DNA of 64,000 nucleotides, from NCBI GenBank assembly GCA_024683485.1, contig JAIKYD010000107.1, forward strand, positions 62,001-126,000, given 5' to 3'. Shown here one piece after another: positions 50,977 through 58,343 of this stretch (the first letter of the stretch is position 1; every line of letters begins with the position of its first letter). The notes under the pieces are model-generated. The model saw only the letters and a list, made by a program, of their open reading frames with translations, ran no database searches and was not told where the DNA came from. A program made the translations under genes and the position numbers. This DNA comes from Saccharofermentans sp. (GTDB taxonomy: Bacteria > Bacillota > Clostridia > Saccharofermentanales > Saccharofermentanaceae).

Positions 50977-51036
50977 TCTGCCTCCAGGTTTTCGTGTTTT
51001 CTATTATTATACTTAACCGGCCTGAAGTAAGCCTGC

Positions 51037-51065
51037 TTAATTCACTCCCCGATAAAAGGTATAAT
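51037..51065 (+). promoter_or_regulatory. Promoter of the sigma-WYL gene
   Basis: TATAAT (51060-51065) with a weak TTAATT (51037-51042) at 17-base spacing lies 47 bases before the start codon. The -10 box is perfect; the -35 box matches only half of the consensus. Confidence 0.45.
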
Positions 51066-51111: not shown

Positions 51112-52758
51112 ATGATCAAAAAAGACATCAAGCCAAAAGAATCCACAAAAATATACAGGAACAGTCTTACCATCGAAGAGGAAAAACAATGTATCCGTAT
51201 GATCCGCAATGGCACCGAGGAGGAATATGAAGCTGCCTGGGGCAAGATCTATGCGGAATTCATAGATCTGATCGCAAGCGTGGTGAGAAAAAAGATGAAT
51301 CTCTTGATAACCAATCCTTACGATCAGGAACTGGAAAAAGATCTGACACAGGCTGGTTATCTCGGTGTTGTCTCGGCAGTCAGGAAATACAAGCTGACTT
51401 CTAAAGCTAAGCTGACAACTTACGCTATGTATTACATAGAGAGAAATATAAGTTACGAGTTCATGCTTCAGATGAGTTCGGGCACAAAAAACAATTCAAG
51501 AAGACGTGCAAAAAGATCAACTGTAAAACAGAGCAGCAAGATAAAGCCTGTAAGAACGTCCCGAAAATCAGTCAGCACAGAAAAGAACAATACATCTGAA
51601 CAAGGCAAATACGGAAGTGAACGTCTTACTTTGCAGCTTTTGGATGTGATCCGCAAGGAAACAGATATCAATAACAAGAAGTCATCCCTTGAACTCAGAA
51701 AGGCCCTCAGCGCCTATATCAAAGACAGTCACGGAAATACCGTACCGCAGGCCGATGAGGACGGCAAGACTATCCATAAGATACTTGCAGAAATGGCTTT
51801 CGAACTGGATGATGAAGTGTGCATAGATGACGAGGATTTCTTCAGCAAGATCAAGATGAATGAATCTGACAGCATGAGCGTCCGTGTAAAGTCGGCGCCA
51901 TCCTGCAAGAGCGTTTTTTACAAGCATCTTTTCGATGACAGCGAAATGGACAAACTTATACAGCTTGTCTGTTCTTCCGAACAGTTAACCGACAAAGAGA
52001 AGAAATCACTCGTGAATAAACTCATCTCCACCAAGAGCAATTACTACTCAACACCTCTCTGGGACAGGAAGAAAAATATTCCAATGTTCGATCCGAAAGG
52101 CATACACGGCAGATACAAAGACAACAAGCGTCTTACTGGAAACATTAAGACTATCCAGGAGGCCATCAACTCACGCGCACAGATATCATTCAAATTCAAC
52201 CGTTACACCGAAGACAAGGAACTTGTTTATACGACAGGGAAAGAACACATCGTCAACCCGTATCACATCGTGATCTATCATGATAATTACTACCTGATCT
52301 GCACAAACAGGCGCTCACCTGTGATCCAGCATTATCGTCTTGACCTCATGACTGACGTCTCAGTACGCAAGGATAAAAAGTCCAGCCAATATATTCCTGT
52401 TGAATATGACTCGCTGTCCGATGTGCCCCGCTCAGTCCGCTATTTGAACTGGAATCCCTCTCAATACATGTCCGAACACCTCTATATGGGATATGACAAA
52501 CCCCGCAAGATCACATTCAGAGCAAAAAAGAGCGAAGAAAAGATCTTCACGACTTTCCACGACTGGTTTGATGATAATTTCACCTCCCGTGATGACCGCC
52601 AAAACCCCGGTTCGATAATTCTGGAAGTAACGACCTCCCCTTCCCTGATCGTCCCCTTTGCACTTCAATATTCAGACATGTTCGAAGTGGTGAATCCGGA
52701 GATAAGAGAAGAAATATATAAAAAGATATCTGAGCTAAGACGGAAATACAAAGAATAA
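51112..52758 (+). CDS. Fusion of sigma-70 region 2 with a winged-helix/WYL regulator
   Basis: The 548-residue protein combines two transcription modules. Residues about 40-120 match sigma-70 region 2: DLTQAGYLGVVSAVRKYK followed by LTTYAMYYIERNISYEF, which cover core-binding and -10 recognition. A basic linker (about 123-160; SRRRAKRSTVK) follows. Residues about 171-245 resemble the winged helix of WYL regulators (LQLLDVIRKETD). The WYL domain lies at about 345-420 (HIVNPYHIVIYHDNYYLICT, QHYRLD) and a WCX-like end at about 465-548. Sigma region 4 is absent. AAGGAG precedes the ATG. The eight genes downstream carry a repeated palindromic upstream element that may be its target. Confidence 0.8.
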   Translation: MIKKDIKPKESTKIYRNSLTIEEEKQCIRMIRNGTEEEYEAAWGKIYAEFIDLIASVVRKKMNLLITNPYDQELEKDLTQAGYLGVVSAVRKYKLTSKAKLTTYAMYYIERNISYEFMLQMSSGTKNNSRRRAKRSTVKQSSKIKPVRTSRKSVSTEKNNTSEQGKYGSERLTLQLLDVIRKETDINNKKSSLELRKALSAYIKDSHGNTVPQADEDGKTIHKILAEMAFELDDEVCIDDEDFFSKIKMNESDSMSVRVKSAPSCKSVFYKHLFDDSEMDKLIQLVCSSEQLTDKEKKSLVNKLISTKSNYYSTPLWDRKKNIPMFDPKGIHGRYKDNKRLTGNIKTIQEAINSRAQISFKFNRYTEDKELVYTTGKEHIVNPYHIVIYHDNYYLICTNRRSPVIQHYRLDLMTDVSVRKDKKSSQYIPVEYDSLSDVPRSVRYLNWNPSQYMSEHLYMGYDKPRKITFRAKKSEEKIFTTFHDWFDDNFTSRDDRQNPGSIILEVTTSPSLIVPFALQYSDMFEVVNPEIREEIYKKISELRRKYKE

Positions 52759-52892
52759 AATCTTCTTCCTCTTTATCTTGAAACAACTGAGTTTCATATA
52801 TAGATTCTAAAAAACCTCCAAAATAAGTGAGTCTTCAGTAATTTTTTGAAAATCACACCACTTAATCCTTTTCAGCTGCGCGATAACAGTCA

Positions 52893-52933
52893 CCGCAAGA
52901 TTTTGCGGTTGCCATCTCCATAATATTAGCAGA
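52893..52933 (+). repeat. 41-bp upstream element, copy 1
   Basis: CCGCAA (52893-52898) and TTGCGG (52903-52908) are perfect inverted arms around GATT. After eight variable bases comes TCCATAATATTAGCAGA. The same element occurs at 53544; 35 of 41 positions agree by hand count, with the same spacing. If CATAAT is a -10 box, the palindrome sits at about -31, where a -35 contact is expected. It lies 32 bases before the start codon of the next gene. Confidence 0.75.
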
Positions 52934-52964
52934 TACAAAATTACGTTAAGGGAGGTGGACTTTT

Positions 52965-53528
52965 ATGAAATCCATTCAAGTAGCAGCAGGCAGGACAACA
53001 GATCTTAAGAATGTTATAGACATCGACAGAGGAAACGTATTTCTTCTCAGGTGCGGCAAGAGAAACAGCACATATGTAATTTATATTGGAAGAAGACGCA
53101 AGCTAAATTATAAGGCAGAAGAAATGTATCTGATCCTTCATGTCAAAAATCATTACGAGATCGAGAGGCTGGAACCCGGGGAAATTAACCTTGTCGATCA
53201 CATCAGAAGCAAGGGATATAAATGCCAAACACTGAATTATTGTGATCACGTCAATAACTACAAAGAAAAGCTTTTAATCTACAATACCGGATTCGGCATG
53301 TTTACGGAAAACGGATATGCGTTCCAAATACTCAAGTGGACTTTGTCCGGTGCGTTTTTCAAATTTCTGATAGTCCCTTGCGGAAAACCTTTAGACGAAC
53401 TGGATTTTGTCTCAGATTATGACTTTATGGGCAGATACCGCAAGATTATTAAGAAATTTCTGACTGAACCAGAAAACTACGCACAGAACTACGACGAATT
53501 ATTGTCTAAAGCCGAAATCAATTTCTAA
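52965..53528 (+). CDS. Hypothetical protein, first gene of the accessory block
   Basis: The 187-residue soluble protein has a beta-rich N-terminal part (VFLLRCGKRNSTYVIYIG), a central KGYKCQTLNYCDHVNNYKEK segment and a helical end. I recognise no family and see no signal or membrane segment. GGGAGGTGG before ATG 52965 is a strong ribosome site, and the first 41-bp element lies immediately upstream. The gene is followed by the second element, so it can be expressed separately from the other block genes. Confidence 0.55.
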   Translation: MKSIQVAAGRTTDLKNVIDIDRGNVFLLRCGKRNSTYVIYIGRRRKLNYKAEEMYLILHVKNHYEIERLEPGEINLVDHIRSKGYKCQTLNYCDHVNNYKEKLLIYNTGFGMFTENGYAFQILKWTLSGAFFKFLIVPCGKPLDELDFVSDYDFMGRYRKIIKKFLTEPENYAQNYDELLSKAEINF

Positions 53529-53543
53529 ACCACAATTTTATCT

Positions 53544-53584
53544 CCGCAATATTTTGCGGTTGATGTTTCCATAATATTTGCAGA
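53544..53584 (+). repeat. 41-bp upstream element, copy 2
   Basis: CCGCAA (53544-53549) and TTGCGG (53554-53559) surround TATT. Eight variable bases and TCCATAATATTTGCAGA follow. Architecture and spacing equal those of the copy at 52893. It starts 16 bases after the stop codon of the first block gene and precedes the leader of the second. Confidence 0.75.
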
Positions 53585-53588
53585 AAGA

Positions 53589-53624
53589 ATCTGAACTGCC
53601 TTGTTTTCGGCAGTCTTTTCAGAT
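53589..53624 (+). promoter_or_regulatory. Leader hairpin, possible attenuator
   Basis: ATCTGAACTGCC (53589-53600) folds against GGCAG (53609-53613) and TTCAGAT (53618-53624) with a four-base bulge. A shorter fold, ACTGCC/GGCAGT followed by CTTTTC, looks like a weak terminator. It lies downstream of the second 41-bp element and before the ribosome site of the second block gene, so it may reduce or regulate read-through. Confidence 0.45.
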
Positions 53625-53665
53625 GCAAGATTTTTCATTATTCAATTTGTTAAAGGAGGAAGAAC

Positions 53666-54013
53666 ATGAAAGATTATGTAATGTTTGTAGAGAGAAGCTA
53701 TGTGTGGGTTGATAACAACATGGGTTATTACCACGAATTCATTGAGGCATGGGGATTAACGTCAAAAGGCGTGATCGATGAGATCAAAGATCCGAATGAC
53801 ATTTATCATTATTTGTTCATAGAAGAAATCAAGAAGGACGTTGATTGGAAAGAATTCTATTCTCATACGAAGCACTTTGTTCTGACAACGGTCTATATCC
53901 GTGAAGATCATTTGGAACTCTATAACATTAGGCGAAAGAGAGGCAGACCCGCTAAAAATGTGATGAAGCTCATGGCTCAGGAAATAGGAGGTGATGAAGA
54001 TGAGAACGTTTAA
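53666..54013 (+). CDS. Hypothetical protein with AT-hook-like motif
   Basis: The 115-residue protein is rich in aromatic and acidic residues in its first 90 positions (YVWVDNNMGYYHEFIEAWG). Then comes a basic RRKRGRPAKNVM segment whose core RGRP is the AT-hook motif that binds the minor groove of AT-rich DNA. The end is acidic (GGDEDENV). I recognise no family. AAAGGAGG lies before the ATG. Its last 14 bases overlap the start of the next gene, whose ribosome site lies inside this one. Confidence 0.55.
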   Translation: MKDYVMFVERSYVWVDNNMGYYHEFIEAWGLTSKGVIDEIKDPNDIYHYLFIEEIKKDVDWKEFYSHTKHFVLTTVYIREDHLELYNIRRKRGRPAKNVMKLMAQEIGGDEDENV

Positions 54014-54992
54014 CGAGATCAGACCAGAGAGCATTAAATGTGACAACATCTGGAAACTCTATATGGTATTAGTCACATTGGACTCCCCTTACTTAAAGAC
54101 TCGGCTTAGAGGTGATGATACAGAGTATCTGTACCTGATCAAGAGTGTCAGCCTTGAATCCGGAGAAGTTGACTACACGTTTGATCATATGTGCAACATG
54201 GAACTGCCGTACCGTAAGAATGAGACTATCCACTTATGCCTTAAACGCATGCTGTGCAATGAAGAGATCTCGAAGGAACTTGATATAAGCGTCAACTCAT
54301 ATTCTGCCTACGACAGAAAACTTACAGCAAAAGGAATCTTGGACAGACATAACGTTGCTCTCCCAAATAAGGACGAATTGAATAAATCATCTTTCGTACG
54401 GGACATGCCCGTTACATATATCGAGGAAAAGCCTAAACACAAGACAGGTCGTCCACATAAAGGATGGAGGTTAACAAACCAGGAAAGAGCCGCGAGATTC
54501 AAAGCTTTTCTCGATGATAAGGATATTTGGTATATGTGTGATACCGATCTTGGTGTTCCGCACATCACGATGGTTTTCGAGATCCCTGATTGTCTTGTTA
54601 GATGTATTGAAAGCAGTATCTGGTTCTTTGAACGTCATGCAGAGGTCAAGACTTACTATCCGGAAGTGGTGTCCAAGATGTGCGAATGCGGGTGTTTAGA
54701 TGAATTGCTGAAGCTTCTTAACTATATGAATGCCTATGTAATCCCGGGTAATTCCGAAGGCGAAGTCAATCTCTCGCCGAGGTTCTATAACAACCCTGCC
54801 GACTTTTCCATCGTTGAAAGGACGGTCATCAATTACAAGTTCTGGGATGCATTGCCCGATACAGAAGAATACATTACCGGGTGCTGTCCGGAACTTCTTA
54901 ACGACCTTGCACCATTCATCGTAGGTGTTATTACAGGCAATCTTACTTCCGGCAAGGCAATGGAACTGATCGAGACAAACATTCTGAATTAA
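54000..54992 (+). CDS. Hypothetical protein with HTH-like and AT-hook-like segments
   Basis: The start is ATG 54000, eight bases after AGGAGG; GTG 53991 and ATG 53994 fall in or next to that site. The 330-residue protein has a region (about 78-110: CNEEISKELDISVNSYSAYD) that reads like a helix-turn-helix. It also has a basic KTGRPHKGWR segment (about 152) close to an AT hook. The C-terminal 170 residues are mixed and unassigned. DNA binding is plausible from these two features but unproven. It overlaps the previous gene by 14 bases. Confidence 0.55.
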   Translation: MRTFNEIRPESIKCDNIWKLYMVLVTLDSPYLKTRLRGDDTEYLYLIKSVSLESGEVDYTFDHMCNMELPYRKNETIHLCLKRMLCNEEISKELDISVNSYSAYDRKLTAKGILDRHNVALPNKDELNKSSFVRDMPVTYIEEKPKHKTGRPHKGWRLTNQERAARFKAFLDDKDIWYMCDTDLGVPHITMVFEIPDCLVRCIESSIWFFERHAEVKTYYPEVVSKMCECGCLDELLKLLNYMNAYVIPGNSEGEVNLSPRFYNNPADFSIVERTVINYKFWDALPDTEEYITGCCPELLNDLAPFIVGVITGNLTSGKAMELIETNILN

Positions 54993-55008
54993 GAAAGAGG
55001 TGATGAAG

Positions 55009-55287
55009 ATGAGCAACAATAAAGATTTCGTTGTCAGCGTTGAGTTTTACGCGAATGAATCAGACAAGAAGAAAGGAGTTTGCAAAGACAGGTGCACCGT
55101 TAACTTTCCGAAGGATAAGTGCGCGGGGAAGCTCCGGAGGATTACCGCTATCGAGGATGAAAATGAACGTGAGAATGAAATGTGCAGACTGAAGTTCAAA
55201 GTGAAGAGCGCTGCTCTTGATCAGATCAGAAACAAAATCGGCAATGAAGGAATCTTAGTAGCTAATATCGAGGAGGATGCAGTATGA
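55009..55287 (+). CDS. Small hypothetical protein
   Basis: The start is ATG 55009, eight bases after AAAGAGG. The bases GAGGTGATGAAGATGAG around the start are the same as at the preceding gene. The 92-residue product is charged and lysine-rich with a beta-like first half (DFVVSVEFYANES) and three cysteines. I recognise no family. Its stop overlaps the next start by 4 bases, so translation is coupled. Confidence 0.5.
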   Translation: MSNNKDFVVSVEFYANESDKKKGVCKDRCTVNFPKDKCAGKLRRITAIEDENERENEMCRLKFKVKSAALDQIRNKIGNEGILVANIEEDAV

Positions 55288-56036
55288 GAAACATGATGAA
55301 AGAATATCTTGGTGACGATTATTCAGATAACTGTGTCAGGAACTTCTGTCTTTACTGGATAAAGGCTTCACAGGGGAGCGGGTCTGAATGGCGCAAAAAT
55401 AATGATCTTGACTGTCTGTACTATAACGGTGATCTCCGGGCTGACACATTGATGAGCGCGTGGTCACCTGTCAAGATGGTCGCCGATTATCTTAACAGGG
55501 ATACCGGAAAAGTATTCTTCAAAAAGAGAGCTGATTGTGACGATCCGTTTCACGATCTTAGACTCCTGGCAGAGGATACAGATGCATATCTTCCGCCAAA
55601 GCACAGGCTGGTCATTAAACTTAACAAGTTCCTGAAACTTGCGGAGCAGGCTTGCAATTATTTCCTTCTGCCGGACAGCAGGATGAATTGTGAAAGGTAC
55701 AGGATCAACATAAACGGCAAAGCCGTCTGGCTCTTTGATCAGGTGCCCGCAACACTTGCTCATTTGTTTGATAAGGAAAGCCTCGGCAAGTATTTCCTTG
55801 ATGAAAAAGGAAATGTTGACCGGAAAAAGCTGACTGAATGGTTAGTTAATGAAAAACTCACGTTCGGATTTGAGGACGGAAAGACCGATAAAGATCACAT
55901 AAAGCCGCTTATCAAAGGACTTGATCCGTATAAAGCCAAGTGGCTTACAGACGAAGATGAGATTGACGAAGCACTGACATACATGATGTCTTTACTGAGC
56001 GAAAGAAATAAATCATTTGGTAATGAGGAGGTATAA
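55284..56036 (+). CDS. Hypothetical protein
   Basis: The 250-residue protein is soluble and largely helical, with conserved-looking tryptophans (CLYWIKASQGSGSEWRKN, MSAWSPVKMVADYL). A long central helix region follows (PPKHRLVIKLNKFLKLAEQ), and then an acidic C-terminal helix. The later part (KKLTEWLVNEKLTFGFEDG) might be a small helical domain. I recognise no family. The start overlaps the previous stop (ATGA); the next gene starts three bases after the stop. Confidence 0.55.
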   Translation: MRNMMKEYLGDDYSDNCVRNFCLYWIKASQGSGSEWRKNNDLDCLYYNGDLRADTLMSAWSPVKMVADYLNRDTGKVFFKKRADCDDPFHDLRLLAEDTDAYLPPKHRLVIKLNKFLKLAEQACNYFLLPDSRMNCERYRININGKAVWLFDQVPATLAHLFDKESLGKYFLDEKGNVDRKKLTEWLVNEKLTFGFEDGKTDKDHIKPLIKGLDPYKAKWLTDEDEIDEALTYMMSLLSERNKSFGNEEV

Positions 56037-56039
56037 CCC

Positions 56040-56552
56040 ATGTTGAAGAATAATGAAAACAAGATGATCGGACAGGCAAGGCTTAAGCTTTTACTGATGC
56101 TTATGCTCAAGGATATTCCTGAACTCGATGTGAGTGTCAAAGGCGGTCACGGCAAGAATGAGAATCAGATGTACTACTGGATCAAGTGCAATTATTCAGG
56201 ACACGAGTTTTGGATAACTTTTTTCGGGAAGTGGTATGATGCTGAATTCGATATGTACCATAACAACCATGACACCGTCATGTTCGTGCATGCAAAACCC
56301 GGAACAGGCAGAACTTCTCCGAGCAGTTTGTATTCAAAGGACTCTGCATCCAAATCACTCGAATGGACAAATCCTTTGGAATACCTGGAAAATAAGGATG
56401 GTATGTATTACATTACTTCTAAAGACATCCTGGAATCCGATAAACTTGCGGAAGATGTGATCGGAGCGTTTGCCCTGTTTATACTGACTCATACCGATGA
56501 GTTCTTTATCGACTGGATGAGATCATTAAAGTTTAACAAGGAGACTGAATGA
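56040..56552 (+). CDS. Hypothetical protein
   Basis: The 170-residue protein starts with a hydrophobic but short helix (ARLKLLLMLMLKDIPELD), followed by a strand-rich part (MYYWIKCNYSGHEFWITFFG) and a helical end (AFALFILTHTDEFFIDWM). It has no clear membrane anchor. I recognise no family. GAGGAGGT precedes ATG 56040, and its stop overlaps the start of the HD-domain gene by 4 bases, tying it to the enzyme genes downstream. Confidence 0.55.
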   Translation: MLKNNENKMIGQARLKLLLMLMLKDIPELDVSVKGGHGKNENQMYYWIKCNYSGHEFWITFFGKWYDAEFDMYHNNHDTVMFVHAKPGTGRTSPSSLYSKDSASKSLEWTNPLEYLENKDGMYYITSKDILESDKLAEDVIGAFALFILTHTDEFFIDWMRSLKFNKETE

Positions 56553-57115
56553 ACAAGTATTCATTAAGTGACATAGATGAGATAAGAGATTACAACAGGG
56601 ACAGATTCACAGAATTCTTCCCTGCTTCTCTTCAGAGCGAGGAATTGCTTGATTATCTTTACAACAACGCTTACTTCACTGCCCCGTCCGCATGCGGTAT
56701 CCACGGGGCGTGGATAGGCGGCAATTACGATCACAGTATGAAGGTCACAGAATATCTCTTGCAATATACCAAAGATGAGAACCTCACCTGGGAACGCGAA
56801 GAATCGCCGTATATAATCGGTATGTTCCATGATCTCTGCAAGAGCGATATCAGAGACTTCAAAATGACCAAAGACGGAAAGCTTAAGGTGATCACGGTTC
56901 CGAACAAAGATAAGCGTCATGCCGAGAAATCACTGGAACTGATCGCGCCGTTTATCGAGCTTACGATCGAGGAAAAGCTCTGCATCTATTACCACATGGG
57001 CAAATACGATGAGACGCTTGATTACATCGAACTGATGGACAAAGTCGCCCTGAAATATCCCAACATTCTCTGGACGCAGAAAGCTGATACGAGAGCAGCC
57101 AGAGAAGGAATTTAA
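56549..57115 (+). CDS. HD-domain phosphohydrolase
   Basis: The 188-residue protein shows the HD-superfamily metal-binding set: NYDHSMKVTEYL (first His), GMFHDLCKSD (HD pair), HAEKSLELI and YYHMG (further His), and a late Asp in KADTRAA. HD enzymes hydrolyse phosphate esters of nucleotides or related compounds; small forms such as this are found in phages and genomic islands. The substrate is unknown. It is coupled to the preceding unknown gene and lies 11 bases upstream of the metallophosphoesterase gene. Confidence 0.82.
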   Translation: MNKYSLSDIDEIRDYNRDRFTEFFPASLQSEELLDYLYNNAYFTAPSACGIHGAWIGGNYDHSMKVTEYLLQYTKDENLTWEREESPYIIGMFHDLCKSDIRDFKMTKDGKLKVITVPNKDKRHAEKSLELIAPFIELTIEEKLCIYYHMGKYDETLDYIELMDKVALKYPNILWTQKADTRAAREGI

Positions 57116-57126
57116 AAGGAGAATAC

Positions 57127-57840
57127 ATGAAGGTATTAATCATTCCCGATGTCCATCTTAAGCCGTGGATCTTCGATCAGGCTGAAGACATAATGAGAGA
57201 AAAAGATTTTGACCGCGCAGTATTTATCGGCGATCTGGTAGATGACTGGAATCGTCAGAACGATGCCGGTCTTTATGAGGAAACATTGAAACGTGCTGTG
57301 GAGTTCGCAAAGAATCATCCCGATATGCTTTGGTGTTACGGCAATCACGATCTTGCTTATCTATGGGATATATATGATCATCCCGGGTTTTCCGATGATG
57401 CAAAAGATATTGTCTGTGAGTATTTCAACATCCTTGAGGACACTTTGGAATCGCCGGAAAACATAGCAATATTGCACCGCATCGACAATGTGCTTTTCTC
57501 CCACGCAGGACTCGTCAAAGGTTTTGTTGACGATTATTTGGATGACATAAGAGACGGTATTGACGCGGTCATCGATACAGTTAACGGATTTGACCAGAAC
57601 GAACTCTGGGACGATATAAGCCCGGTATGGGCAAGGCCACAGTACCGGAACGGTTTTGAGAATATGTATCCGCCGGAATTCTTTCAGGTGGTCAGACACA
57701 CACCTGTCCCCTGGGTCTTAAAGCAGGGAAATCTTCTTACGACCGATACCTTCTCAACGGCAAGTGACGGAAGACCTATCGGCACTAATGAGTTCAGCTG
57801 GGTGGATACCATGACCAGGGAAGGAGGACCAATCGAATGA
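57127..57840 (+). CDS. Calcineurin-like metallophosphoesterase
   Basis: The 237-residue protein has the metallophosphoesterase motifs in order: DVH (IPDVHLKP), GDLVDDW, GNHD (CYGNHDLAYL) and SHAG, spaced as in PPP-type phosphatases and ApaH-like enzymes. A final His motif is less clear (RHTPVPW). It should be a two-metal phosphodiesterase or phosphatase, acting on nucleotides or a phosphoprotein. It overlaps the next gene by 4 bases. The three phosphohydrolase genes together look like one functional unit. Confidence 0.88.
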   Translation: MKVLIIPDVHLKPWIFDQAEDIMREKDFDRAVFIGDLVDDWNRQNDAGLYEETLKRAVEFAKNHPDMLWCYGNHDLAYLWDIYDHPGFSDDAKDIVCEYFNILEDTLESPENIAILHRIDNVLFSHAGLVKGFVDDYLDDIRDGIDAVIDTVNGFDQNELWDDISPVWARPQYRNGFENMYPPEFFQVVRHTPVPWVLKQGNLLTTDTFSTASDGRPIGTNEFSWVDTMTREGGPIE

Positions 57841-58343
57841 TCGGGAAAATCTTTTTTGATATGGACGGTGTCCTTGCAGACTTCGACAGGGGTGTGGAAG
57901 AACTATGCCACATGCCACCGCAGAATATTAACGGCAAGAGGGATCTTCAAAAAGATGATGAGATGTGGCTTCGGATAAAAAAGACCGGTCACTTCTATGA
58001 CAAACTCGAAATGATGCCCGGCGCATATGAGATGTTTGATCAGATCTACAGCAAATATCCCGGCTGCTGCGAGATCCTTACCGGTATCCCCAAGCCGAAC
58101 CGCGGCATCACTACTGCAGGCGAAGATAAGACCAATTGGGTCCGCAGACTTCTTTCCAAAAACATCAAAGTCAACATCGTTTTCCGTGAAGAAAAACCCC
58201 GTTACTGCTCTGGAACAGACTGCATCCTTATCGATGATTCTATCGAGAACATCAATGACTGGATCAGGTTTGGCGGCACGGGAATACTTCACAAAAGCGC
58301 GGATGAGACAATCGCCAGACTTAAAGAACTCGGCATCTTATGA
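57837..58343 (+). CDS. HAD-superfamily 5'-nucleotidase-like protein
   Basis: The 168-residue protein has the HAD motif 1 FFDMDGVLADFDRG with the nucleophile and acid/base aspartates, a Thr in LTGIP (motif 2), the lysine KTNWVRR (motif 3) and LIDDSIENINDW (motif 4). The order and length are those of the NT5C-like deoxyribonucleotidases often carried by phages. It should dephosphorylate a nucleoside monophosphate. Its ATGA start is coupled to the metallophosphoesterase gene. It is the last gene before a strong terminator. Confidence 0.88.
   Translation: MIGKIFFDMDGVLADFDRGVEELCHMPPQNINGKRDLQKDDEMWLRIKKTGHFYDKLEMMPGAYEMFDQIYSKYPGCCEILTGIPKPNRGITTAGEDKTNWVRRLLSKNIKVNIVFREEKPRYCSGTDCILIDDSIENINDWIRFGGTGILHKSADETIARLKELGIL

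Follow-up and report, generated by a model that had tools for sequence, protein, structure and literature searches.

The window, as the whole 64,000-nt stretch of Saccharofermentans DNA analysed here is called, contains the gene of a protein (SigWYL) in which, judging from its sequence and predicted fold, the half of a sigma factor that opens promoters is joined to a DriD-like ligand-sensing DNA-binding regulator. SigWYL probably acts as a self-contained switch, bringing RNA polymerase to a small set of genes of its own. The account that we favour, and hold to be reasonably probable, is that of a ligand-responsive sigma chimera in one chain: a WYL dimer at a dyad would replace region 4, and the protein's own region 2 would read the -10 element, switching on its own cassette. 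Somewhat probable, too, is the description of a one-component sigma factor having a dimeric WYL regulator in place of regions 3 and 4, an orthogonal promoter class and a regulon controlled in trans. The usual view is that sigma factors require region 2 as well as region 4, and their control by ligands normally falls to separate proteins, anti-sigma factors or activators. A single chain with the core-binding/-10 module and a dyad reader gated by a ligand would show how activators can become sigma factors.

The domain organization is summarized in Table 1. As a single sequence, SigWYL matched Pfam WYL above the cut-off (E 6.8e-9) and Sigma70_r2 below it (E 2.7e-4, residues 76-113), while NCBIfam sigma families were matched at E ~2e-6 and a PHROG sigma family over residues 17-114 (E 1.6e-10). 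When the N-terminal alignment of 12 members was used as a profile against the PDB sigma factors, an E value of 1.6e-14 was obtained, which settles the sigma identity of the N-terminus. The FliA_WhiG model of NCBIfam was matched by 10 of the 12 members and Pfam WYL was present in all of them. Residues 21-121 of the AlphaFold model superposed on S. aureus SigB in the RNA polymerase open complex (Z 13.6, rmsd 1.8 Å, 91 residues), and a separate model of the N-terminal part also superposed on sigma in such complexes (Z 12.8, rmsd ~1.8-1.9 Å). Residues 323-548 superposed on DriD with a Z of 14.6; the predicted fold of residues 166-548 aligned along the entire DriD chain, and BrxR and CapW were also found as fold matches of the C-terminal part. 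Regions 3 and 4 gave no match in any of the 12 members in profile searches. Fold and homology are established. The sequence-only reading had placed region 2 at residues ~40-120, followed by a winged-helix/WYL/WCX regulator in the C-terminal two thirds, and had noticed the lack of region 4. The profile search that it proposed for the N-terminus proved significant and region 2 is present, with its boundaries corrected to ~17-122 and region 1.2 included; the other two assignments were borne out.

The residues of the sigma part, among them those of region 2 for core binding and melting, were compared using the numbering of E. coli sigma-70; the rows own_L043 and own_L044, read in a wrong frame, were left out. 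The equivalent of D403 is D or E in 12/12 members, and those of K426, T429 and the aromatic residue 430 (Y/F) are each kept in 12/12. Q406 was found in six of the twelve, E407 in two, and N409 and W433 in none. The poor retention of E407, N409 and W433 speaks against a chimera; SigF, a functional sigma factor, keeps the same subset of residues as SigWYL and also lacks these three, so that SigWYL may or may not bind core and melt DNA. Since regions 3.2 and 4 are missing, core affinity and initiation by SigWYL may be weak. The positions that read T at -12 in sigma-70, Q437 and T440, are altered in all members, being R111 and S114 in the window protein and Ile at the 440 equivalent in two members. 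Q437H and T440I are known suppressors of a T-to-C change at -12 (PMC2613000). The sigma part was found to be under purifying selection, with dN/dS values of 0.08-0.24 between close SigWYL pairs.

In the WYL motif, the first arginine of the ligand pair RxxR (R409) is present in 12/12 members and the second is Leu in 12/12 (DLM, not DRM). In the WYL domain of PafB these arginines contact ssDNA, the second being R214 (PMC11804915). SigWYL, whose membership in the WYL family stands, has only half of the pair, so that ssDNA is no safe guess for its ligand. It was also considered that the sigma-like domain is a non-transcriptional reader of ssDNA that aids damage sensing by the WYL part and has no role at promoters. 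Region 2 does bind single-stranded -10 DNA, and the WYL domains of DriD and PafBC bind ssDNA. This explanation is nevertheless very improbable, since the leucine stands in place of R214 throughout the family and the class of promoters with C at -12, described below, would be left unexplained.

The 12 full-length SigWYL genes, the window's included, have the same layout and come from 11 of 85 Saccharofermentans genomes; the relatives are 30-41% identical to the window protein. Two more genes, in G056 and G034, are truncated at contig ends, and the fusion-bearing genomes of the genus total 13, with 72 lacking the fusion. The genomes surveyed are drafts, that of the window being a 2.5-Mb draft. 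Five members, as called, begin after region 1.2; their start codons are uncertain and region 1.2 may be missing. The family is established, and an assembly join of two genes, a possibility raised in the sequence-only reading, is ruled out by the recurrence of full-length homologues with one layout. Outside the genus the fusion was not found among 391 genomes of the class or 398 of the phylum, nor in viral contigs, plasmids or phages, where the WYL part only was met; the pattern scan of genome contigs is a weak search. No published sigma-WYL fusion was found in literature searches of open-licence PMC.

As had been pointed out earlier, SigWYL heads a same-strand block (52965-58343) made mostly of proteins with no assigned function, and it probably controls this block. 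The flanking genes, coding for glycerate kinase and GH36 melibiase, directly adjoin each other in G120, which shows that the block is an inserted accessory cassette. In other genomes, the SigWYL cassettes combine these gene families in mosaic fashion. NT5C is doubtful as a core cassette gene, as it adjoins glycerate kinase in G006 without SigWYL. A relationship of famC to the DUF6994 protein that replaces it in G050 and G103 was rejected (hhalign probability 0.1%).

Table 1. Features of the SigWYL locus, in coordinates of the window
Feature	Position	Strand	Basis or remark
Imperfect dyad GAAGTAAGC-CT-GCTTAATTC	51024-51043		upstream of SigWYL gene
TATAAT, -10 of the SigWYL gene's own SigA-like promoter	51060-51065	+	sequence
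SigWYL gene (sigma-70 regions 1.2-2.4 + wHTH + 3HB + WYL + WCX)	51112-52758	+	548 aa; ATG start, no internal stop
Sigma-70 regions 1.2-2.4, residues ~17-122	51160-51477	+	family profile against PDB sigma factors; superposition on SigB
Linker, residues 123-163, predicted disordered, basic, no region 3	51478-51600	+	pLDDT < 50
Winged-helix DNA-binding domain, residues ~166-250	51607-51861	+	DriD fold match from 166/168 to 548; plain WYL regulators begin here
Three-helix bundle + WYL (residues 344-417) + WCX (residues ~465-545), span 270-548	51919-52758	+	Pfam WYL; DriD/PafBC/BrxR fold
Candidate SigWYL promoter 1	52890-52938	+	upstream of famA; dyad CCGCAAGATTTTGCGG (52893-52908), then CTCCATAAT; -10 hexamer CATAAT (52919-52924)
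famA, 187 aa	52965-53528	+	kept in other cassettes and in unlinked G029 operon
Candidate SigWYL promoter 2	53541-53589	+	upstream of famA2; dyad CCGCAATATTTTGCGG (53544-53559), then TTCCATAAT; -10 at 53570-53575
famA2, 115 aa	53666-54013	+	homologue in G056 cassette
famB, 333 aa	53991-54992	+	homologues in G005, G051 and G102 cassettes
95-aa ORF	55000-55287	+	no homologue found
famC, 250 aa, most conserved partner	55284-56036	+	10/85 genus genomes, all 10 with SigWYL
famD, 170 aa	56040-56552	+	cassette comparison; also in unlinked G029 operon
HD-domain phosphohydrolase	56549-57115	+	Pfam HD above cut-off
Calcineurin-like phosphoesterase	57127-57840	+	Pfam Metallophos E 2.7e-8
5'-deoxynucleotidase NT5C	57837-58343	+	loosely tied to cassette

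A link to phage defence, proposed on the basis of the WYL family, is not supported: PADLOC returned for the window cassette only WYL/MzaA-type (sigma-type) matches to SigWYL itself and sub-significant matches. A distant famC homologue (L143 8624-9301; G261, of another family) belongs to the cargo of a conjugative element, with no SigWYL nearby. It lies beside proteins that read, from their sequences, as a DNA methylase, an HNH-like and a GIY-YIG-like protein, and this restriction/endonuclease-like cargo is the one lead towards defence. In G025, a 1166-aa helicase-like protein with DISARM DrmD-like PADLOC matches (L035 1701-5201, best E 9.6e-17) is encoded ~7 kb upstream of a SigWYL gene. In G103, a gene for a microbial PARG-type macrodomain (L055 677-1480, PF10021, E 1.1e-28) ends 17 bp before the SigWYL gene, which hints at ADP-ribose chemistry.

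A different cassette was observed at the same glycerate-kinase locus in G051 (L032 1097-4611 and 5107-8647) and G006 (L040, L104). It encodes two full-length small sigma factors (259-262 aa; regions 2, 3 and 4 in the one tested), paired paralogues of ~350 aa and a 688-aa protein. The genus also contains WYL regulators apparently fused to leucine-rich repeats (L012 298-2502 and L011 1204-2745), one of them with an extra C-terminal domain, and WYL regulators of similar length, 740-770 aa, at L013, L015, L019 and L020.

A repeat search revealed a 49-nt direct repeat in both gaps after the SigWYL gene; its two copies, 82% identical, are candidate promoters 1 and 2. The intergenic gaps of other cassettes have the same design with different dyads: a dyad of ~16 bp is followed by CTCCATAAT, four bases and GTGAAA, usually 25-50 nt ahead of the start codon. 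In total, 23 sites were found in or near cassettes across all 13 fusion genomes, with the operator dyad centred at about -30. In 20 of the 23, the distance from the dyad centre down to the -12 base is 18-19 bp, and the dyads pair at 7-8 of 8 positions in 11/23 sites, against 0.8% of shuffles. A palindromic sequence, the putative SigWYL operator, is thus found near the -35 of the target promoters. The best match to a -35 hexamer was 1.96 of 6 for the 23 sites, below the 2.57 of shuffled sequences, and the target promoters therefore look activator-dependent.

This bears on the alternative that SigWYL is a repressor, covering the promoter as BrxR or CapW do and using the sigma-like domain as a DNA-binding accessory. 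BrxR and CapW are repressing WYL regulators of defence islands, their folds match that of SigWYL, and the dyad overlaps the promoter. We regard repression as quite improbable because promoters with such poor -35 elements appear to depend on an activator, and because the retained sigma fold would be needless.

A k-mer count over 45 upstream regions, made without selecting on the motif, gave CATAAT, CCATAAT and CTCCATAA as the commonest 6-, 7- and 8-mers (13, 10 and 7 regions), the maxima in 100 shuffles being 12, 8 and 5 regions. When a pattern leaving -12 free was used, C was found at this position in 15/15 matches. Two -10 variants, CCATAATnAGGGTGAAA and CCATAAAGTAAGTGAAA, go with the two SigWYL paralogues of G029, and the sites of G050 and G103 use CCATATT. 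This covariation of the -10 with the fusion clade is suggestive; it could be due to common descent. Four bases after the -10, GTGAAA is conserved (e.g. L033 7206-7253, L107 9275-9322 and 52919-52938 of the window). A weak inverted repeat (GTGAA..TTCAC) was observed downstream at some sites, and GTGAAA may serve as a discriminator, as initial transcript or in a 5' hairpin. The last of these was discarded, since the RNA folds were weak and inconsistent and no Rfam match was obtained. The imperfect dyad upstream of the SigWYL gene was also rejected as a conserved operator; it is not conserved in the upstream regions of relatives, most of which have plain TATAAT-like boxes.

The specificity of the promoter class was evaluated with a sequence-only model (R1) trained on 16 sites, with the window and G056 sites held out. 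Over the 85 genomes it gave 19 matches at E<1e-3, all in fusion genomes. No significant site was detected in the 72 genomes without the fusion, where the best value, 0.0019, is roughly what chance would give in so many genomes. The training set did not include three of the 19 matches: the G056 site, another site in G051 and G029:C22. This last site is unlinked to both SigWYL genes of its genome and precedes famA, famD and a phosphoesterase; being unlinked and yet upstream of the same gene families, it suggests regulation in trans. Promoters 1 and 2 ranked first and second in the 64 kb of the window (E 3e-4 and 0.096). A weight matrix from one clade, restricted to the -10 and the downstream part, placed sites of other clades in the top five of 377 kb. 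The motif model learned from sites in these cassettes and is partly circular, so that independent evidence comes from three sources: the sites held out, the scan across clades and the 72 genomes without the fusion. That the promoter class exists and is confined to genomes with the fusion is established.

The dyad in the -35 place, the lack of a -35 element, the C at -12 and the replacement of Q437 are most simply explained by a fused region 2 that reads the -10, with the WYL dimer standing in for region 4. A WYL-family dimer would bind the ~16-bp dyad via its winged helices, at the -35 place, and the tethered region 2 would dock on the RNA polymerase clamp. Region 2 of SigWYL, rather than that of SigA, would then melt the dedicated -10, CTCCATAAT with C at -12. 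The switch would be gated by the WYL/WCX core on sensing a ligand, and SigWYL would activate, not repress, its own accessory cassette and, in G029, one unlinked operon of the same families. The earlier proposal of a self-contained, ligand-gated sigma factor has in this way gained strong circumstantial support from the dyad that replaces the -35 and from the C at -12; its ligand gate would follow from homology.

The main rival is SigA assisted by SigWYL. Here a WYL dimer on the dyad would act as an activator of the DriD/PafBC type and help the SigA holoenzyme to use a poor promoter; its fused region 2 would provide an extra contact with polymerase or DNA instead of replacing SigA. CATAAT agrees with the SigA -10 consensus at 5/6 positions, so that the SigA holoenzyme could use these promoters with SigWYL as a plain DriD-like activator; moreover, the closest folds, DriD and PafBC, work on SigA-type holoenzymes at promoters whose -35 and -10 elements are weak and whose -35 is covered by the operator. 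Neither the C at -12 in 15/15 matches nor the conserved CTC/GTGAAA context is a SigA feature, however, and two copies of region 2 would compete for the single clamp site. Plain WYL activators do without a sigma domain, whereas that of SigWYL is under purifying selection. Overall, we consider assisted SigA unlikely and prefer the sigma chimera. If the chimera is true, SigWYL would be a compact switch for inducible, orthogonal transcription from a defined promoter. With the promoter class known, the idea can be tested directly in vitro, and the expression signal of the conserved proteins famA-famD can now be sought.

Among known systems, DriD of C. crescentus and PafBC of mycobacteria occupy the -35 region and make poor promoters work with the housekeeping sigma (PMC12340889, PMC11804915). 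SigWYL shares with them the wHTH-3HB-WYL-WCX architecture and fold, a putative operator at the -35 position and a poor -35; in contrast, they have no sigma domain and carry the canonical pair of ssDNA arginines, of which SigWYL keeps the first only. The sigma factors closest to SigWYL in region 2 are FliA/WhiG and the SigF-type of group 3. Their regions 3 and 4 and their -35 hexamer are lacking in the SigWYL system, and the FliA -10 is GCCGATAA, whereas the SigWYL promoters have CTCCATAA. MzaA (NCBIfam NF041931), a sigma-70-like protein of the MZA anti-phage system, resembles SigWYL in having a region 2-like stretch within an accessory system, and one SigWYL member matches it at E 5.8e-7; the MzaA profile is longer (683 positions in PADLOC), and the SigWYL cassettes showed no Mza genes. 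The ECF sigma factors that carry a sensor of their own (ECF41, CorE and OrbS) are, like SigWYL, single chains with a sigma part and a sensor; in their case region 4 is retained and the sensor is an addition to a complete sigma, while SigWYL has no region 4. The SigO-RsoA pair of B. subtilis illustrates that a region 2 (RsoA) lacking region 4 can work when another DNA reader is given (PMC8103513). That second reader is a separate protein with sigma region 4, whereas in SigWYL it would be a WYL regulator in the same chain.
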